Below, piece by piece: positions 3,438 through 63,927 of a stretch of DNA of 64,000 nucleotides (positions are counted from its first letter, which is position 1; every line of letters begins with the position of its first letter). The DNA comes from Pseudomonas alcaligenes (GTDB lineage Bacteria; Pseudomonadota; Gammaproteobacteria; Pseudomonadales; Pseudomonadaceae), in assembly GCF_041729615.1 (NCBI RefSeq), contig NZ_CP154874.1, positions 4,013,501 through 4,077,500 of the forward strand. The letters are read 5' to 3'. The notes under the pieces were generated by a model that was not told the origin of the DNA, made no database searches, and saw only the letters and a program-made list of their open reading frames with translations. The translations under genes and the position numbers were made by a program.

Positions 3438-4304
3438 ATGATCATTCGAGCGGTGCATGAGATGCGAGAAACGCTGCTGTTGAAGGCCCTGCCACTGCTG
3501 GCCCTGCTGCTGTTGCCCGGCTTGTCCGCCGCCGTCGGCAAGTGCGAGCGCCTGGTGGCCACCGGCAATCCGGAATACCCACCTTACCTGTGGCGAGATC
3601 CGCAGAGCCCGCAGCACCTGATCGGTGCCAACGCCGACCTGCTGAACCTGATCGGCGAGCAGCTCGGCGTGAAAATCGAGATCCTGCACACCGGGCCCTG
3701 GTCGCGCGCCCAGGACGAGGTACGCACCGGCCGGGTCGACCTGCTGGCCGGCGCCTTCCTTACCCTGCCACGCCTGGAGCACATGGACTACGTACACCCG
3801 GCCTTCTTCGTCACGCCCAGCGTGGTCTGGGTGCGCAAGGAACAGGGCTTCCCCTACAGCGGCTGGGAGGATCTGCGCGGACGCACCGGCGGCACTCTGG
3901 TGAATAACAGCTTCGGCCAGCAGTTTGACGCCTTCGCCAAGGCCAATCTGAACCTGGAGGAGGTGCCTAGCCTGATCCAGGCCTTCCAGAAGCTGTTGCT
4001 CGGACGCACCGACTACGTGCTGTACGAACGCTACCCGGGCGTGGCGCTGGCCAATACCCAGGGCATGCTGGACAGCCTGGAGACCCTGGAGCCGCCGATC
4101 TCAAGTGAAGGGCTGTACCTGACCCTGTCGCATAGCTCGGCCTGCAACGATCCCTGGCTGCGCGGACAGCTGGCGAAAAAGATGACAGAATTGGTCGCCG
4201 CCGGCCTGCCGGAAACTCTTCTGCAGCGCAACCTGGAGCGCTGGAAGGCCCAGCAGCTGCAAGCCGCCGACGTTCCCCCGCAAGAGCAGGAAGTGCCTCA
4301 GTGA
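3438..4304 (+). CDS. Periplasmic solute-binding-like protein (SBP_bac_3 fold)
   Basis: A 288-aa secreted protein with a signal peptide (hydrophobic stretch ending LLLPGLSAAVG) followed by a type-II periplasmic binding fold typical of amino-acid binding proteins. The in-frame ATG at 3462 (MRETLLLKALPLL) gives a more usual signal peptide than the upstream ATG, so the true start is uncertain. No permease or ATPase lies nearby. Its GTG-overlapped neighbours are a DUF4398 lipoprotein and an OmpA-type lipoprotein, which suggests an envelope or sensing role more than import. The ligand cannot be told. Confidence 0.7.
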   Translation: MIIRAVHEMRETLLLKALPLLALLLLPGLSAAVGKCERLVATGNPEYPPYLWRDPQSPQHLIGANADLLNLIGEQLGVKIEILHTGPWSRAQDEVRTGRVDLLAGAFLTLPRLEHMDYVHPAFFVTPSVVWVRKEQGFPYSGWEDLRGRTGGTLVNNSFGQQFDAFAKANLNLEEVPSLIQAFQKLLLGRTDYVLYERYPGVALANTQGMLDSLETLEPPISSEGLYLTLSHSSACNDPWLRGQLAKKMTELVAAGLPETLLQRNLERWKAQQLQAADVPPQEQEVPQ

Positions 4305-28660: not shown

Positions 28661-28736
28661 GTCCCCTTCGTCTAGTGGCCTAGGACACCGCCCTTTCACG
28701 GCGGTAACAGGGGTTCGAGTCCCCTAGGGGACGCCA
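28661..28736 (+). tRNA. tRNA-Glu (TTC), copy 1
   Basis: 76 nt with a 7-bp acceptor stem GTCCCCT/AGGGGAC, anticodon TTC in the loop CTTTCAC, the T-arm GGTTCGAGTCC and an encoded CCA end. Confidence 0.97.
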
Positions 28737-28737
28737 T

Positions 28738-28813
<76 letters not shown>

Positions 28814-28824
28814 GTTTCACGAGG

Positions 28825-28847
28825 CGCCGCTCCTGTAGCGGCGTTTT
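28825..28847 (+). terminator. Terminator-like hairpin between tRNA pairs
   Basis: CGCCGCT/AGCGGCG stem with a 5-nt loop and four T. It is likely weak, so some read-through into the second pair is expected. Confidence 0.65.
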
Positions 28848-28917
28848 GATTAGAGTTAGACGGTGGGTGGTAACACCGACCGGCAACACCGGGAAGCTGT
28901 TGTAAGCTCCGGGCCAC

Positions 28918-28993
28918 GTCCCCTTCGTCTAGTGGCCTAGGACACCGCCCTTTCACGGCGGTAACAGGGGTTCGAGTCCCCTAGGGGACGCCA
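28918..28993 (+). tRNA. tRNA-Glu (TTC), copy 2
   Basis: Identical to copy 1 and exactly 257 nt downstream of it. The 5' flank (GGGAAGCTGTTGTAAGCTCC) also repeats the flank of copy 1 with few changes, so the whole unit was duplicated. Confidence 0.97.
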
Positions 28994-28994
28994 T

Positions 28995-29070
<76 letters not shown>

Positions 29071-47491: not shown

Positions 47492-48415
47492 TTAGTGGCG
47501 GGCGGCCAGCAGGGCCTCCAGCTTCTCCTGGTCGCGGGCGAACAGGCGGATGCCCTCGGCCAGCTTCTCGGTGGCCATGGCGTCCTCGTTCAGCGACCAG
47601 CGGAAGGCACTTTCATCCAGCGCCTGGCGTGGCTCACCGGCGCCCGCGCTCAGCAGGCGCGGCAACTGGCCCTGGTCGTCGGCCAGCTGTTGCAGCAGCT
47701 CGGGGCTGATGGTCAGGCGGTCGCAGCCCGCTAGCTGCTCGATCTGGCCCAGGTTGCGGAAGCTCGCGCCCATCACCACGGTGTCGTAGCCGTTGGCCTT
47801 GTAGTACTGGTAGATGCGCGACACGGATTTCACGCCCGGGTCCTCGGCGCCGACGAAGTCGCGGCCCTCGGCCTTCTTGTACCAGTCGTAGATGCGCCCG
47901 ACGAAGGGCGAGATGAGGAATACGCCGGCGTCCGCGCAGGCCACGGCCTGGGCGAAGGAGAACAGCAGGGTCAGGTTGGTCTGGATGCCGGCCTTCTCCA
48001 GCTGCTCGGCGGCGCGGATGCCTTCCCAGGTCGAGGCGATCTTGATCAGCACCCGCTCGCGGCCGATGCCGGCCTGCTCGTACAGGCCGATGAGGCGCTC
48101 GGCGCGGCGCAGGGTAGCCTGGGTATCGAAGGACAGGCGGGCGTCCACCTCGGTGGAGATGCGCCCCGGGATCACCTTGAGGATTTCCTGGCCGACGGCG
48201 ACGCCGAAGCGGTCGCAGGCCAGGCCCAGATCGCCGGCGCAGCCCTGCACGGCCTTGCCCAGCAGCTCGGCATAGCGGGGCAGGGCTGCGGCCTTGAGCA
48301 GCAGTGAGGGGTTGGTGGTGGCGTCCACCGGCTTGAGCCGGCTGATGGCGTCGAGGTCGCCGGTGTCGGCGACTACGGTGGTGTACTGCTTGAGTTGGTC
48401 CAGCTTGGAGGTCAT
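47492..48415 (-). CDS. tal: Transaldolase
   Basis: A 307-aa type B transaldolase of the pentose phosphate pathway, exchanging a dihydroxyacetone unit between sugar phosphates. Signatures are [14 protein letters not shown] and the Schiff-base lysine in [10 protein letters not shown], then [11 protein letters not shown] and [10 protein letters not shown]. Length and motifs are complete. It is monocistronic, with a shared terminator downstream. Confidence 0.96.
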
Positions 48416-59164: not shown

Positions 59165-59241
59165 CGGGGCGTAGCGCAGCCCGGTAGCGCACTTGCATGG
59201 GGTGCAAGGGGTCGAGTGTTCGAATCACTCCGTCCCGACCA
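59165..59241 (+). tRNA. tRNA-Pro (GGG)
   Basis: 77 nt: acceptor CGGGGCG/CGTCCCG, D-arm, anticodon stem CTTGC/GCAAG with loop ATGGGGT (anticodon GGG), T-arm with TTCGAAT and encoded CCA. It borders an accessory defence segment. A 21-nt inverted copy of its anticodon arm lies at 59298-59318. Confidence 0.97.
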
Positions 59242-59253
59242 AATAACCCTAAC

Positions 59254-59285
59254 AAAAAGGCCAGTCAGCAATGACTGGCCTTTTT
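59254..59285. terminator. Terminator of tRNA-Pro
   Basis: AAAAAGGCCAGTCA/TGACTGGCCTTTTT, a perfect 14-bp stem with GCAA loop and T-tract. The A-tract makes it usable from the other side too. Confidence 0.92.
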
Positions 59286-59293
59286 GTTTGTGT

Positions 59294-59318
59294 CGCACTT
59301 GCACCCCATGCAAGTGCG
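59294..59318 (-). repeat. Inverted copy of the tRNA-Pro anticodon arm (hairpin)
   Basis: Bases 59298-59318 are the exact reverse complement of tRNA-Pro bases 59188-59208 (21 of 21). The element also forms its own 10-bp stem CGCACTTGCA/TGCAAGTGCG around the loop CCCCA; on the minus strand it reads as an anticodon stem-loop with loop TGGGG and a longer stem. It lies 8 nt past the mrr stop codon, at the edge of the accessory genes. It may be an integration-site remnant or a mimic. Confidence 0.85.
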
Positions 59319-59325
59319 TTTTGAA

Positions 59326-60249
59326 TCAAAGCTCTTCGTCGAAGTAGTCACTATCGAGGCGTGGCAGTTTGAGCAGGCGCGAGGTCACGCCGACTTCGTG
59401 GTCCATCATCAGATTGACCAGGCGTTGGCCGTCGACCAACACCATGCCCTCTACCGAGCGGGAGAAGTCGACGGCCTGGGCGGAGAAGCCGGAGGTAGTG
59501 ATGAACACGCCGCGCTTGGCCTTCTGGCCGGCGAGGGCGCCGTAGAAGGCTTGCAGCTCCGGGCGGCCGACGGTGTTCTGCCAGCGCTTGGCTTGCACAT
59601 AGACCTTCTCCAGGCCCAGCGCGTCCAGTGAAATGACTCCATCGATACCGCCGTCGCCGCTGCCGCCGACCTGTTGCAGGTCTTCGCGGTTGGCGCCGTA
59701 ACCGAGGCGGTGCAGCACATCCAGCACTATGACCTCGAAGCGCGCCGGGCTGACCTGCAGCAGGCTGTCGAGCAGGTCGCCGGCGACGCTGGCGCGCAGT
59801 TCCTTCAGAGCTTGCTCCAGGCGCTCTTCGGGACTGGCGGTAGCGGCGCTGGTGGCGAGCGGAGCGTCTGGTTCCGCGTCCAAAGCTACCGCGTCGCTGG
59901 CTGTTTTCAATTTCACATCCATGAAGTCTATGGCCAGATGCTCGACCTGATCGGGTGAGAGCGGGGCGGGATGCGCTTGGGCAAATGCCAGGCCTGCTTC
60001 GGTGAGCTTCCAGATGCCGCGCTTGGCGCTGCTGGAGAGCCCTGAGCGCTTGAGGCGGTCGTGGGCCCAACCGGCGCGGTTCTTGTAAGTGGCCTGGCCG
60101 CTGGCAATGGTTTCCTGGCGCTGGGTGTGGCTCAGCTGCAGTGCATGGGCAGCGGCCTCATGTGCCTCGCGGGCTGGAGCGCCGTCCGGGCGGCTGGCGA
60201 GAAAACGCAGGATGGGTTCGATGAACTGGTCGTAGGTGGGTAGGGACAT
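59326..60249 (-). CDS. Mrr-family restriction endonuclease
   Basis: A 307-aa protein with an N-terminal Mrr winged-helix domain (about 1-92, PTYDQFIEPILRFLASR) and a C-terminal Mrr catalytic domain (about 168-290). The PD-(D/E)xK core is visible as GGSGDGGIDG (Asp203) and VQAKRW (Gln219, Lys221), so it should be an active nuclease. E. coli Mrr cleaves methylated DNA; here the enzyme lies downstream of a type I modification system, so its specificity must tolerate that methylation. It is last in the minus-strand defence cluster. Confidence 0.9.
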   Translation of the reverse strand: MSLPTYDQFIEPILRFLASRPDGAPAREAHEAAAHALQLSHTQRQETIASGQATYKNRAGWAHDRLKRSGLSSSAKRGIWKLTEAGLAFAQAHPAPLSPDQVEHLAIDFMDVKLKTASDAVALDAEPDAPLATSAATASPEERLEQALKELRASVAGDLLDSLLQVSPARFEVIVLDVLHRLGYGANREDLQQVGGSGDGGIDGVISLDALGLEKVYVQAKRWQNTVGRPELQAFYGALAGQKAKRGVFITTSGFSAQAVDFSRSVEGMVLVDGQRLVNLMMDHEVGVTSRLLKLPRLDSDYFDEEL

Positions 60250-60276: not shown

Positions 60277-61050
60277 TCAGGCCAAGGGTTGCATGGTGCG
60301 GCATTTAGGGAAGGCGCTGCAGCCCCAGAAGCGTTGGCCGGCCTTGGGGCCGCTCTTGACGGTGCGTACCAGCAGGGCGCTACCGCACCTAGGGCATTGG
60401 CGCTCGGCGTTTGGGTCGCTGCGTTGCTTGAGGCGCTGCACATGCTCGCGTTGGGTGGCCAGGGTCGGGGCGAGGCGGCCGCTTTGCAGGGCTGCCTGCA
60501 TGGCTTCGATCTGCTCCTCGCTGAATACCGGTTGGTCGAATGACTTGATGTAGCGGATAAAGCCGCCGCCCTGGGTGACGTTGGCCGGCATCGGCGTTTT
60601 CAGGGTGGCGCCGCCGACGAAGGCGATCACCGAATGCAGATGCTCCGGCGCCACGCCCAAGGCCGACTCCAGTGCCTTGAGGTGCTTGTAGTTCTGCCGC
60701 AGCGGGTTCTGGAACTTGAAGCGCTGCTTGTAGATCTGCTGCGTCCACTGTGCCTGCTGCTCGCTGCCGAAGATCCAGCCGCGCATGTTCTTGGTCTCCA
60801 GCACGAAGATGCCGAAGGGCGAGAGGAACACATGGTCGATCTGTGTGGTGCCGTCCGGCGTGGGCAGCGTCACGTCATGCAGGCGCCGGTAGACCTGGCG
60901 ATCCAGCCGATAGTGGGCCAGCACCCGCACCAGCCGCTCGCCGAACCAGCCCTTGAACCAGGGTGTTTTCAGCAGGCTGATCAGCAGCATGGCCGGGATC
61001 AGCCATTTCAGAGTGTCGAGCAGCGGCTGGAGGATAGCGAGATAGTTCAT
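60277..61050 (-). CDS. NERD-domain nuclease-like protein with C-terminal zinc ribbon
   Basis: A 257-aa protein: N-terminal membrane helix (about 12-28), NERD domain (about 35-150) with IDHV (Asp72) and VLETK (Glu85, Lys87) matching a PD-(D/E)xK nuclease core, and a C-terminal topoisomerase-type zinc ribbon (CPRCGSALL ... WGCSAFPKCR). ATG 61050 is chosen within a longer frame. It is 27 nt upstream of mrr and likely co-transcribed. NERD proteins are often plasmid- or defence-associated; the role here is inferred. Confidence 0.85.
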   Translation of the reverse strand: MNYLAILQPLLDTLKWLIPAMLLISLLKTPWFKGWFGERLVRVLAHYRLDRQVYRRLHDVTLPTPDGTTQIDHVFLSPFGIFVLETKNMRGWIFGSEQQAQWTQQIYKQRFKFQNPLRQNYKHLKALESALGVAPEHLHSVIAFVGGATLKTPMPANVTQGGGFIRYIKSFDQPVFSEEQIEAMQAALQSGRLAPTLATQREHVQRLKQRSDPNAERQCPRCGSALLVRTVKSGPKAGQRFWGCSAFPKCRTMQPLA

Positions 61051-61137
61051 GGCAGTCCTTTGCTGAGTCGGTGATGGGTATCGCTGCGCTCCACCTACGC
61101 AGCCCCCCATCCAGTGGCTATCAGGGTTTAGGGCTGA

Positions 61138-62302: not shown

Positions 62303-62545
62303 TCACGCGGAGGTCTTTCTGCCGCGCTTGGCTTTCGGCGCTGCGGCGCGTTGGGCCTGGATGCGTTCGAGCAGCAGGCTGGCGGGTTCGTCGTTCGGGT
62401 CTTGGGGCATCCGTTCGCCTCGACAAAATCGCCGGGAGCGATTTTGGACAGCCGTAGGCTGGGCCGAAGGCCGAGCCCCAGGGAAGGGGCGAGCAAAGGC
62501 CTTGGCTGCACGGTGCTGAGTCAGGCGGTCGACACGCAGCAGCAT
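62303..62545 (-). pseudogene. Duplicated C-terminal tail of HsdS with a 72-bp in-frame insertion
   Basis: An 80-aa frame starting with ATG that overlaps the hsdS stop (TGATG). It repeats the end of HsdS: RVDRLTQ...AKAFA, then 24 extra residues, then RGERMPQDPNDEPASLLLE and the same basic tail. The extra 72 bp contain a 9-bp inverted repeat CAAAATCGC/GCGATTTTG (62424-62446), so it looks like a small inserted repeat that kept the frame. Whether it is translated is unknown. It has no target-recognition domain, so it is best read as a decayed duplicate. Confidence 0.75.
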
Positions 62546-63927
62546 CAGGCACTTTTCCTGCCGCGTTTGGCTTTCGGCGCGGCGGCGCGTTGGGCCTGAA
62601 TGCGTTCGAGCAGCAGGCTGGCGGGCTCGTCGTTCGGGTCTTGGGGTACCAGTTCGCCACGGAAGGCCTTGGCCAGGATGCTTTGGGTCAGGCGGTCGAT
62701 GCGGGCCTGGGCCGTGGCGACCTTGGCTTCCAGTTGATCGGCGAAGGCGAAGAGTTGTTCGACGCGGCGGACGATTTCTGCCTGCTCTTGCAGAGAAGGT
62801 ACGAGTAGGTCTAGCTCTCTAAAATTACCAAGGCTGACTTTTTGCTGAGCTACGCCGGCAGAAATCTCTTGGATCTTTTGCCTGAATAGTTCTGATTTCA
62901 TCTGAAAATAGGCAAATTTCCGAGAAATTATTGATTCATTGATCCTTAGCTTTATGCAGTCTGCTGTAATGACAGCGTCTGGCGCACTTTCTGGGTAAAT
63001 AGCAACGTCGCCGGGTGGGTCTCCCATTTTCGTTATTAGAATGTCTCCGGCGGAGATTTGATGTGCACTCAGCTCTGCGAACTTCTCCGGTGTGATGAAT
63101 TTTGTTTTTTCATCACCAAAGCGCTCGGCACGTATTTCTCGAACAAAGACGAGTGGCTTTCCCTCATCTCGGTAGTCTGAAACTTTCAGGTTGCTACCAA
63201 AGGGGCCTATTGCTAGCGAGTATCTTTCTTCTTTAGTGGCTTGATCTATACGAATCATGCCCCAGCCATTATCAGCCGATGCATTGGCGGTCCGCCACTC
63301 CTCCGTCAACCGCCCGGAAACGGCGGCGGCGAGGACGGATTGGCGGAAGCGTTTGAGCAGGGCGGGGATGGCGTCGATGCGGGCTTTGATAGTGTCGACC
63401 TGGGCCAGTAGCTCATCGAGTTTTTGGGCGATGCGGGTTTGTTCGGCGAGCGGCGCAACCGGGATATCAATTACCTCAAAGTGTGCCGGCTTCAGGTTGT
63501 TAATGTTGACCCCGGCGGATAGCTCAGACACGCGCGTCCTGTACTCGGCACCTTGGGTGAAGAAATGCAAATATCGCGCGTCGATTTCTGTGCTTGGGCG
63601 CAGGACACCACAGAAGGCCCCAAAGGCTCCCGTCCAGTCAGAGTCAGATCTTGCCGCCTTGCCTACAACACTCTTGCTGCCACTGGACATGGCGACAACA
63701 ATGTCCCCTGACCTAACTATTTGCTGCGGGGTTACGCAATCCTCAGGCACATACACCAGATCAGAAGTATTTAATTTTCCTGCCTGGATATTGTTGGCTC
63801 TTAATATCGGCACATAGCCGGGAAGTGGCGTATCGCTGCTCTGTGTTTTGTTGTAAGTCACGCCGCGAATTAGCGCGGCCGTATCGGTTATAGGCCTGCG
63901 AGCCCACCCAGCCGGCAGCTCACTCAT
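62545..63927 (-). CDS. hsdS: Type I restriction-modification specificity subunit HsdS
   Basis: A 460-aa specificity subunit with two target-recognition domains (about 5-155 and 215-385), each followed by a conserved helical spacer: PLAEQTRIAQKLDELLAQVDTIKARID (about 158-190) and PSLQEQAEIVRRVEQLFAFADQLEAKV (about 385-415). The second TRD is visibly poorer in G+C than the neighbours, as is usual for exchanged recognition domains. It overlaps hsdM by 8 nt. The tail is repeated immediately downstream. Confidence 0.93.
   Translation of the reverse strand: MSELPAGWARRPITDTAALIRGVTYNKTQSSDTPLPGYVPILRANNIQAGKLNTSDLVYVPEDCVTPQQIVRSGDIVVAMSSGSKSVVGKAARSDSDWTGAFGAFCGVLRPSTEIDARYLHFFTQGAEYRTRVSELSAGVNINNLKPAHFEVIDIPVAPLAEQTRIAQKLDELLAQVDTIKARIDAIPALLKRFRQSVLAAAVSGRLTEEWRTANASADNGWGMIRIDQATKEERYSLAIGPFGSNLKVSDYRDEGKPLVFVREIRAERFGDEKTKFITPEKFAELSAHQISAGDILITKMGDPPGDVAIYPESAPDAVITADCIKLRINESIISRKFAYFQMKSELFRQKIQEISAGVAQQKVSLGNFRELDLLVPSLQEQAEIVRRVEQLFAFADQLEAKVATAQARIDRLTQSILAKAFRGELVPQDPNDEPASLLLERIQAQRAAAPKAKRGRKSA

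Follow-up and report, generated by a model that had tools for sequence, protein, structure and literature searches.

What is an exact, inverted copy of part of a tRNA gene doing between that gene and a segment of defence genes, and how did it get there? The copy lies in a 64,000-nucleotide stretch of Pseudomonas alcaligenes DNA, referred to here as the window, from a genome represented by a single contig of 4,091,487 bases (~4.09 Mb). Coordinates of the features concerned are given in Table 1; the tRNA-Pro gene was absent from the five Rfam matches at gathering thresholds in the window. Outwards from the copy, the minus-strand genes are, in order, mrr, the NERD gene, an unassigned gene, hsdS, hsdM, the Fic-domain gene and hsdR.

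Table 1. Features at the tRNA-Pro end of the defence segment (window positions unless marked L036, a separate record).
Feature	Position	Strand	Remarks
tRNA-Pro, anticodon GGG	59165..59241	+	called by ARAGORN
Source of the 21-nt copy	59188..59208	+	end of D arm plus anticodon arm
tRNA-Pro arm proper	59192-59208		loop ATGGGGT at 59197-59203
Intrinsic terminator, tRNA-Pro / minus-strand genes	59251..59288	both	17-bp stem
X, inverted and apparently palindromised copy of the tRNA-Pro arm	59294..59318	-	
mrr-like restriction endonuclease gene	59326..60249	-	Mrr_N, Mrr_cat; first of the defence segment
NERD nuclease-related gene	60277..61110	-	with topoisomerase zinc ribbon
hsdS	62545..63927	-	
hsdM, Fic-domain gene, hsdR	L036:4820-11089		at or beyond the window edge

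The hairpin that contains the copy, which we refer to as X, sits between the two-way terminator of tRNA-Pro and the mrr stop codon, starting seven bases past that stop. Positions 59298-59318 of X are the exact 21-nt reverse complement of 59188-59208 in the tRNA gene, and the plus strand of X consists of the left arm of the tRNA (CGCACTTGC), the loop inverted from ATGGGGT to ACCCCAT, and a mirrored left arm. The stem is a perfect 10 bp with a 5-nt loop or, read in the tRNA style, 9 bp with a 7-nt loop. The 46 nt around X fold with -17.3 kcal/mol on the minus strand and -16.9 on the plus strand, which none of 200 shuffles equalled on either strand. The plus strand of X also scores as a terminator-like site; the terminator proper has its T run on the minus strand and an inner, shorter terminator-like stem on the plus strand.

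Allowing up to three mismatches, the 21-mer was found at just two sites in the window, against none in 100 dinucleotide shuffles. The first-pass annotation of this DNA had reported an exact inverted match within a 25-nt hairpin and had held it not to be chance, and on all of this it was right: given the shuffles and the retention of X in three genomes (see below), chance similarity to the tRNA arm can practically be dismissed. Genome-wide, the 25-mer matches X and the tRNA alone at up to three mismatches. In exact form the 25-mer occurs in no viral_contigs record, and the 23-mer core in no genome_contigs record, a set from which records near the window were perhaps excluded; the two relatives described below carry changed forms. 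X resembles the REP/REPIN sequences of Pseudomonas (PMC3116915, available in part) in being a short intergenic palindrome, but it is derived from a tRNA and present once besides the tRNA, not in many copies, and it was rejected as a REP element on that count. A snap-back centred on the terminator was also rejected, as the midpoint of the arms (59253) does not coincide with the terminator centre (about 59269.5).

Elsewhere in the window, the 3' end of hsdS carries a 107-bp direct repeat of 91.6% identity (62316-62422 and 62555-62661; L036:3216-3322 and 3455-3561), probably a duplicated hsdS tail, and a tRNA-Glu/tRNA-Gly pair occurs twice in tandem at 28661-29070. A 92-base tRNA-Ala(agc) called by ARAGORN at 47618-47709 is not listed by Rfam and is probably a false call.

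That tRNA-Pro(GGG) is an integration hotspot is already known, as islands at this gene have been published for P. aeruginosa, with 49-bp repeats and P4-type integrases in 41 of 226 genomes (PMC8373256, available in part). In this genus tRNA-Pro islands cross over in the anticodon arm, as the partial copies below indicate, in agreement with the earlier view of this arm as a crossover site. By eye, from a table, we counted a second, partial tRNA-Pro copy in 15 of 35 other genomes of the genus, with a match that begins within the anticodon arm or a little ahead of it; these copies lie up to about 71 kb off on the same contig or are found on different contigs. Among 22 far partial copies, 13 fit a strict pattern: they have the loop ATGGGGT and the tRNA 3' half in common and differ, bar a few adjacent bases, in the sequence before the loop; the remaining nine failed this pattern and were set aside. 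The 13 far repeats come from different islands (L131 in G013, L133 in G012, L134 in G001, L273-L279, L282, L283 and L285). In G013, a Pfam-confirmed phage integrase adjoins the far repeat.

Is X then the attachment site through which the defence genes came? A scan for tyrosine-integrase motifs, which catches two Pfam-confirmed integrases in tRNA-Pro islands (L131 of G013 and L410 of G012), found none in the 78 kb around X (window plus L036). X thus has neither of the two marks of an attR for which we looked, a far-end copy of the tRNA 3' half in direct orientation and an integrase gene; with no integrase motif and no second copy, the view of X as an att site still active for this defence segment is not supported. 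The first-pass annotation had proposed to look at the far end for just such a direct copy with an integrase, and neither turned up; of the integration origin that it considered, the non-random copy at a crossover arm stands, and a second genomic copy and an integrase motif are missing. The far end of the island was sought by comparing neighbours and was not located, because the sequence there is not the same among relatives. After hsdR comes an MFS gene (L036:11252 onward). In G012 this gene and tRNA-Pro are some 2.2 Mb apart, which means that the order of genes is different at or close to the defence segment; in G013 it sits on another contig. The stretch of G028 that follows its island has nothing but short matches in the window genome.

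Over 1.87 kb at the X locus, the window shares 97.6% DNA identity with P. alcaligenes MB-090714. This genome (locus L138) and Pseudomonas sp. F(2018) (L139) supply the two mrr loci, among 80 from named genomes, that lie beside tRNA-Pro, and both have X between mrr and the terminator, with one loop change in L138 and a wobble change plus an extra outer pair in L139. Accessory genes begin at X in all three genomes that carry it, as the first-pass annotation had said of the window. In L138, a tRNA copy at the terminator comprises the 3' half from near the loop, with X and mrr beyond it. Such a half copy is what an island leaves when it comes in through the tRNA; as the island entered the tRNA itself and X and mrr lie beyond, X is not its attachment site, and the earlier suggestion of attachment through X is not upheld. 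G013 has a degraded mrr (74% identity) beyond its tRNA-Pro repeat, without X. We compared 83 distinct loci with an intact tRNA-Pro and 900 bp or more of downstream sequence. An inverted arm lies within 1 kb at two of them, the window and L139; L138 was not counted, since its tRNA copy at this place is incomplete. No case came up of X at a site without accessory genes, which had been named as an argument against an integration origin; X is, however, a rare element, present at the said two of 83 loci. The idea that X is part of a mobile mrr cassette was rejected after the 3' flanks of all 80 mrr loci had been scanned: the two loci that adjoin tRNA-Pro are the only ones with X.

We also asked how widespread such palindromes are. 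A search of 398 genomes of the genus for the palindrome GCGCAC-nnGC-ATGGGG(T/A)-GCnn-GTGCGC outside tRNA genes, with at most two mismatches, was aimed at the CTAGC type of tRNA-Pro, the other common type besides the CTTGC type of the window. Palindromes were found in 10 of the 398 genomes, and none with the reversed control. All ten hosts have an intact CTAGC-type tRNA-Pro, and the inner arms of their palindromes read CTAGC/GCTAG in five cases, with one change in three and two changes in two (G029, G071); the window has a CTTGC tRNA with a CTTGC palindrome. The palindromes thus form a dispersed family that resembles the tRNA type of its host. Their sites read as intergenic: between HAD-like and Fic genes in G017, G321 and G175; 3' of a xanthine-dehydrogenase-like (XDH) gene in G253, G203, G029, G097 and G373; in G107, past an RHS-like gene and the small gene after it; and in G071, 3' of a gene for an M24 peptidase. 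From the look of the translations, we take these and neighbouring genes to be xanthine-dehydrogenase-like, aldo/keto reductase, LysR, cupin, porin, HAD-like and RHS-like.

Arms of tRNA-like form are also found away from the tRNA. Non-palindromic ectopic arms of ~21-35 nt occur in G043 (L016/L038), G009 (L041), G319 (L043) and G115 (L045), the last with a similarity that seems to run along the tRNA 3' half, and at the XDH locus in G033, G098 and, in altered form, G074. Decayed tRNA-like arms lie at the HAD locus of G121 (L293:2569) and G040 (L298), on the far side of a PIN-toxin/antitoxin pair and ~100 bp upstream of it; in other genomes this locus has the palindrome and a Fic gene. The 21-mer is present in 135 of the 398 genomes, and this list of non-palindromic copies is a lower bound, as the contexts of selected 21-mer loci were read. 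At the 3' end of the XDH gene, the tRNA-like (G033, G098, G074) and palindromic (G097, G373) forms align beside a similar repeat and so stand in corresponding places; in G253, G203 and G029 the palindrome is 8 nt past the stop. On a gene tree of this locus each form label needs two changes, no better than in shuffles, and the tree puts neither form first. In all, the XDH locus (L348-L364, L240) has tRNA-Pro-like arms, plain or palindromic, in eight genomes. The gene content next to the XDH gene varies, with an aldo/keto reductase, LysR plus cupin, or a porin.

Further searches delimit the family. A looser search for the CTTGC type (at most two mismatches) gave 13 of 398 genomes against nine for the control, so the lineage of the window is the sole clear case for this type; besides the window we kept G017, G321, G175, G097 and G373, and set aside G201 (terminator-like), G019, G300, G011, G029 and G036 (a recurring coding-like motif) and G080. 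The G080 site (L226) is an exact 17-nt tRNA-Pro arm within an apparent coding gene. With 19 fixed letters and at most one mismatch, 31 of 343 genomes matched, against seven for the control; ten of these are the window and known palindromes (eight exact, plus G253 and G203), and, judging by context, we took the other 21 for chance matches or coding-like motifs that recur. Across 2.05 Mb, the arms of 41 other isoacceptors gave two exact ectopic matches, both like unrecognised tRNA genes; this is no fair comparison, as the loci had been chosen for tRNA-Pro. Where ectopic arm and tRNA-Pro share one contig (12 genomes, six of which represent one locus), the arm is inverted in ten (G000, G043, G071, G253, G203, G029, G321, G175, G017 and G074) and direct in two (G097 and G098); deletion may remove direct copies. 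The palindromic core was found in no viral contig, also with some inner letters left free, and a phage-carried attP was rejected because no viral_contigs record has the palindrome. In the 53 viral contigs with the 21-mer it is nearly always part of a tRNA-Pro gene; L047 has the arm without the tRNA 3' half, and L051 is cut off. The titles and abstracts returned by a literature search hold no description of a family of tRNA-arm palindromes, which is no proof of novelty; this family is the new part of the present findings, the island site having been published before.

We give about an even chance to the explanation that X is a relic of DNA copying errors at an integration hotspot, namely an ectopic tRNA-Pro arm palindromised by template switching. 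The process would start from a short ectopic copy of the anticodon-arm region of tRNA-Pro(GGG), which is an imperfect inverted repeat with a 5-bp stem and flanks. A polymerase that switched template between the arms would copy one arm onto the other and leave a perfect palindrome, and the same switching could invert the spacer, turning the loop ATGGGGT into ACCCCAT. Each of these steps has a precedent in the available parts of the literature: in E. coli, imperfect inverted repeats are perfected by template switching (PMC7202029); the process homogenises arms and inverts spacers, and in one case a repeat with 5-bp arms and a 5-bp spacer ended up as a perfect repeat of 16 bp whose spacer had been inverted (PMC8604942); and reverse-complement copies and hairpins are created in this way (PMC8794818). 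Template switching alone leaves the arrival of a tRNA fragment at an unlinked site unexplained. We infer that the ectopic fragments probably come from the traffic of integrative elements at tRNA-Pro, elements that leave tRNA gene fragments behind (PMC9897764, available in part). The locus would have been rearranged repeatedly by tRNA-Pro integrases, mrr and other defence genes would have come there, and X would have been inherited since. X probably does nothing specific today, except that it may add a hairpin between two convergent transcripts.

The comparison of forms is consistent with template switching. A perfect inverted repeat stands against an imperfect relative both for X and the tRNA arm and at the XDH locus, where the corresponding places of the two forms are as expected for conversion in place. 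The stem lengthens from 5 bp in the tRNA to 9-16 bp in the intact palindromes, and in some of them palindromy extends into flank that is not tRNA (CC/GG in G321, TC/GA in G253 and G029), as in-place copying of one arm from its partner predicts; G071 and G107 have no such flank pairing, and the two outer pairs form in nine and eight of the 13 rows of an alignment of the palindromes. In this alignment, 88.5% of cells are paired, against 82.9% in shuffles (none of 500 as high), with 18 of 156 cells unpaired, and covariation is 0.141 against 0.084 (two of 500 shuffles); pairs changed on both sides are not above shuffles (153 of 500). Pairing above the shuffles is predicted by template switching and by selection for a hairpin alike. 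Changes cluster at stem columns 13, 14, 26 and 27 and at the last loop base, where L138 and G373 have T altered to A, and CGCAC, GCATGGGG, GC and GTGCG are nearly invariant. This conservation hints at a sequence-specific constraint more than at plain decay and would fit a protein-binding or integrase core site; however, the hint needs to be taken cautiously, as the search pattern itself favoured CGCAC, GCATGGGG, GC and GTGCG, and the family, having been found by pattern, looks more uniform than it may be.

The main rival, possible though on our assessment somewhat unlikely, is that X and the similar palindromes act as integrase core sites, either secondary or decoy attachment sites or the ends of small cassettes moved by tRNA-Pro integrases. 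Their two ~10-bp arms around a 7-bp overlap, ATGGGGT, match the layout of tyrosine-integrase core sites, as far as the source describes it (PMC8371274), with the letters of the window being those of tRNA-Pro, and the 13 far tRNA copies diverge just before this loop. Ectopic arms adjoin accessory genes (mrr-hsd, Fic, the PIN/MazE-antitoxin pair, the small gene after the RHS-like gene, the M24 peptidase), gene content varies beside the XDH copy, and changes avoid the core letters. Yet no element inserted in a palindrome was seen among the loci read, the integrase scan found nothing within about 10 kb of ten palindromes in other genomes, viral contigs lack the core, the 8-kb stretch beside the G029 copy has no second full core, the overlap itself is altered in L138 and G373, and X has no 3' half that would restore a tRNA. 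A bolder form of the same idea, in which palindromic recombination sites at the ends of accessory genes (mrr-hsd, Fic, toxin-antitoxin pairs and others) let tRNA-Pro integrases park or move single genes in trans, somewhat as attC sites serve integron cassettes, strikes us as highly improbable.

Selection on an RNA, less likely than the core site and in our view distinctly unlikely, would make X a hairpin past the mrr stop, or a terminator-like one on the plus strand, that protects or ends transcripts or mimics the tRNA arm, as the first-pass annotation had also suggested. The hairpin is very stable, its plus strand is terminator-like, and the palindrome lies 2-8 nt past a stop with the loop AUGGGGU/A in sense in the window, L138, L139, G253, G203, G029 and G071. 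Against this, a stronger terminator adjoins X, the mrr strand has no T run, X has no Rfam match at gathering thresholds, changes that break pairs are common, as the unpaired cells show, and in G321 and G017 the copy runs antisense to Fic, whose stop codon is the nearest. Mimicry of the tRNA arm is not favoured, given the broken pairs and the lack of an Rfam match. It is very unlikely, lastly, that X is a scar of an inversion or of island excision at tRNA-Pro with no part played by template switching, which would correspond to the remnant proposed in the first-pass annotation. Such a scar would suit a locus as rearranged as this one, given the distant MFS gene in G012 and the poorly matched stretch of G028, and the ten inverted arms among 12 genomes, with the one-locus reservation made above; but X, an intact tRNA, the terminator and mrr are all common to the window and Pseudomonas sp. 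F(2018), and an inversion alone makes no mirror arm.

X has features of several known systems. It shares with the partial tRNA duplications of islands (PMC8373256 and PMC9897764, in the parts available) the tRNA gene, the genus and a fragment beside accessory genes, and differs from them in that it is inverted, comprises the 5' side and arm instead of the 3' half, is a perfect palindrome, and lies 110 bp from the tRNA with no element between. Like the products of quasi-palindrome correction in the sources cited above, it combines a longer perfect repeat, an inverted spacer and a reverse-complement copy; here, however, the case is made by comparison, with no pair caught that is one event apart, and the copies of other genomes are unlinked to the tRNA.

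Should the template-switch reading be true, tRNA-arm palindromes would provide natural before-and-after pairs for the study of a mutation mechanism, and would call for caution before short tRNA-like hairpins are named regulatory RNAs or att sites. If, instead, the integrase reading is true, the palindromes would show where tRNA-Pro islands are able to land or drop cargo while leaving the tRNA untouched.
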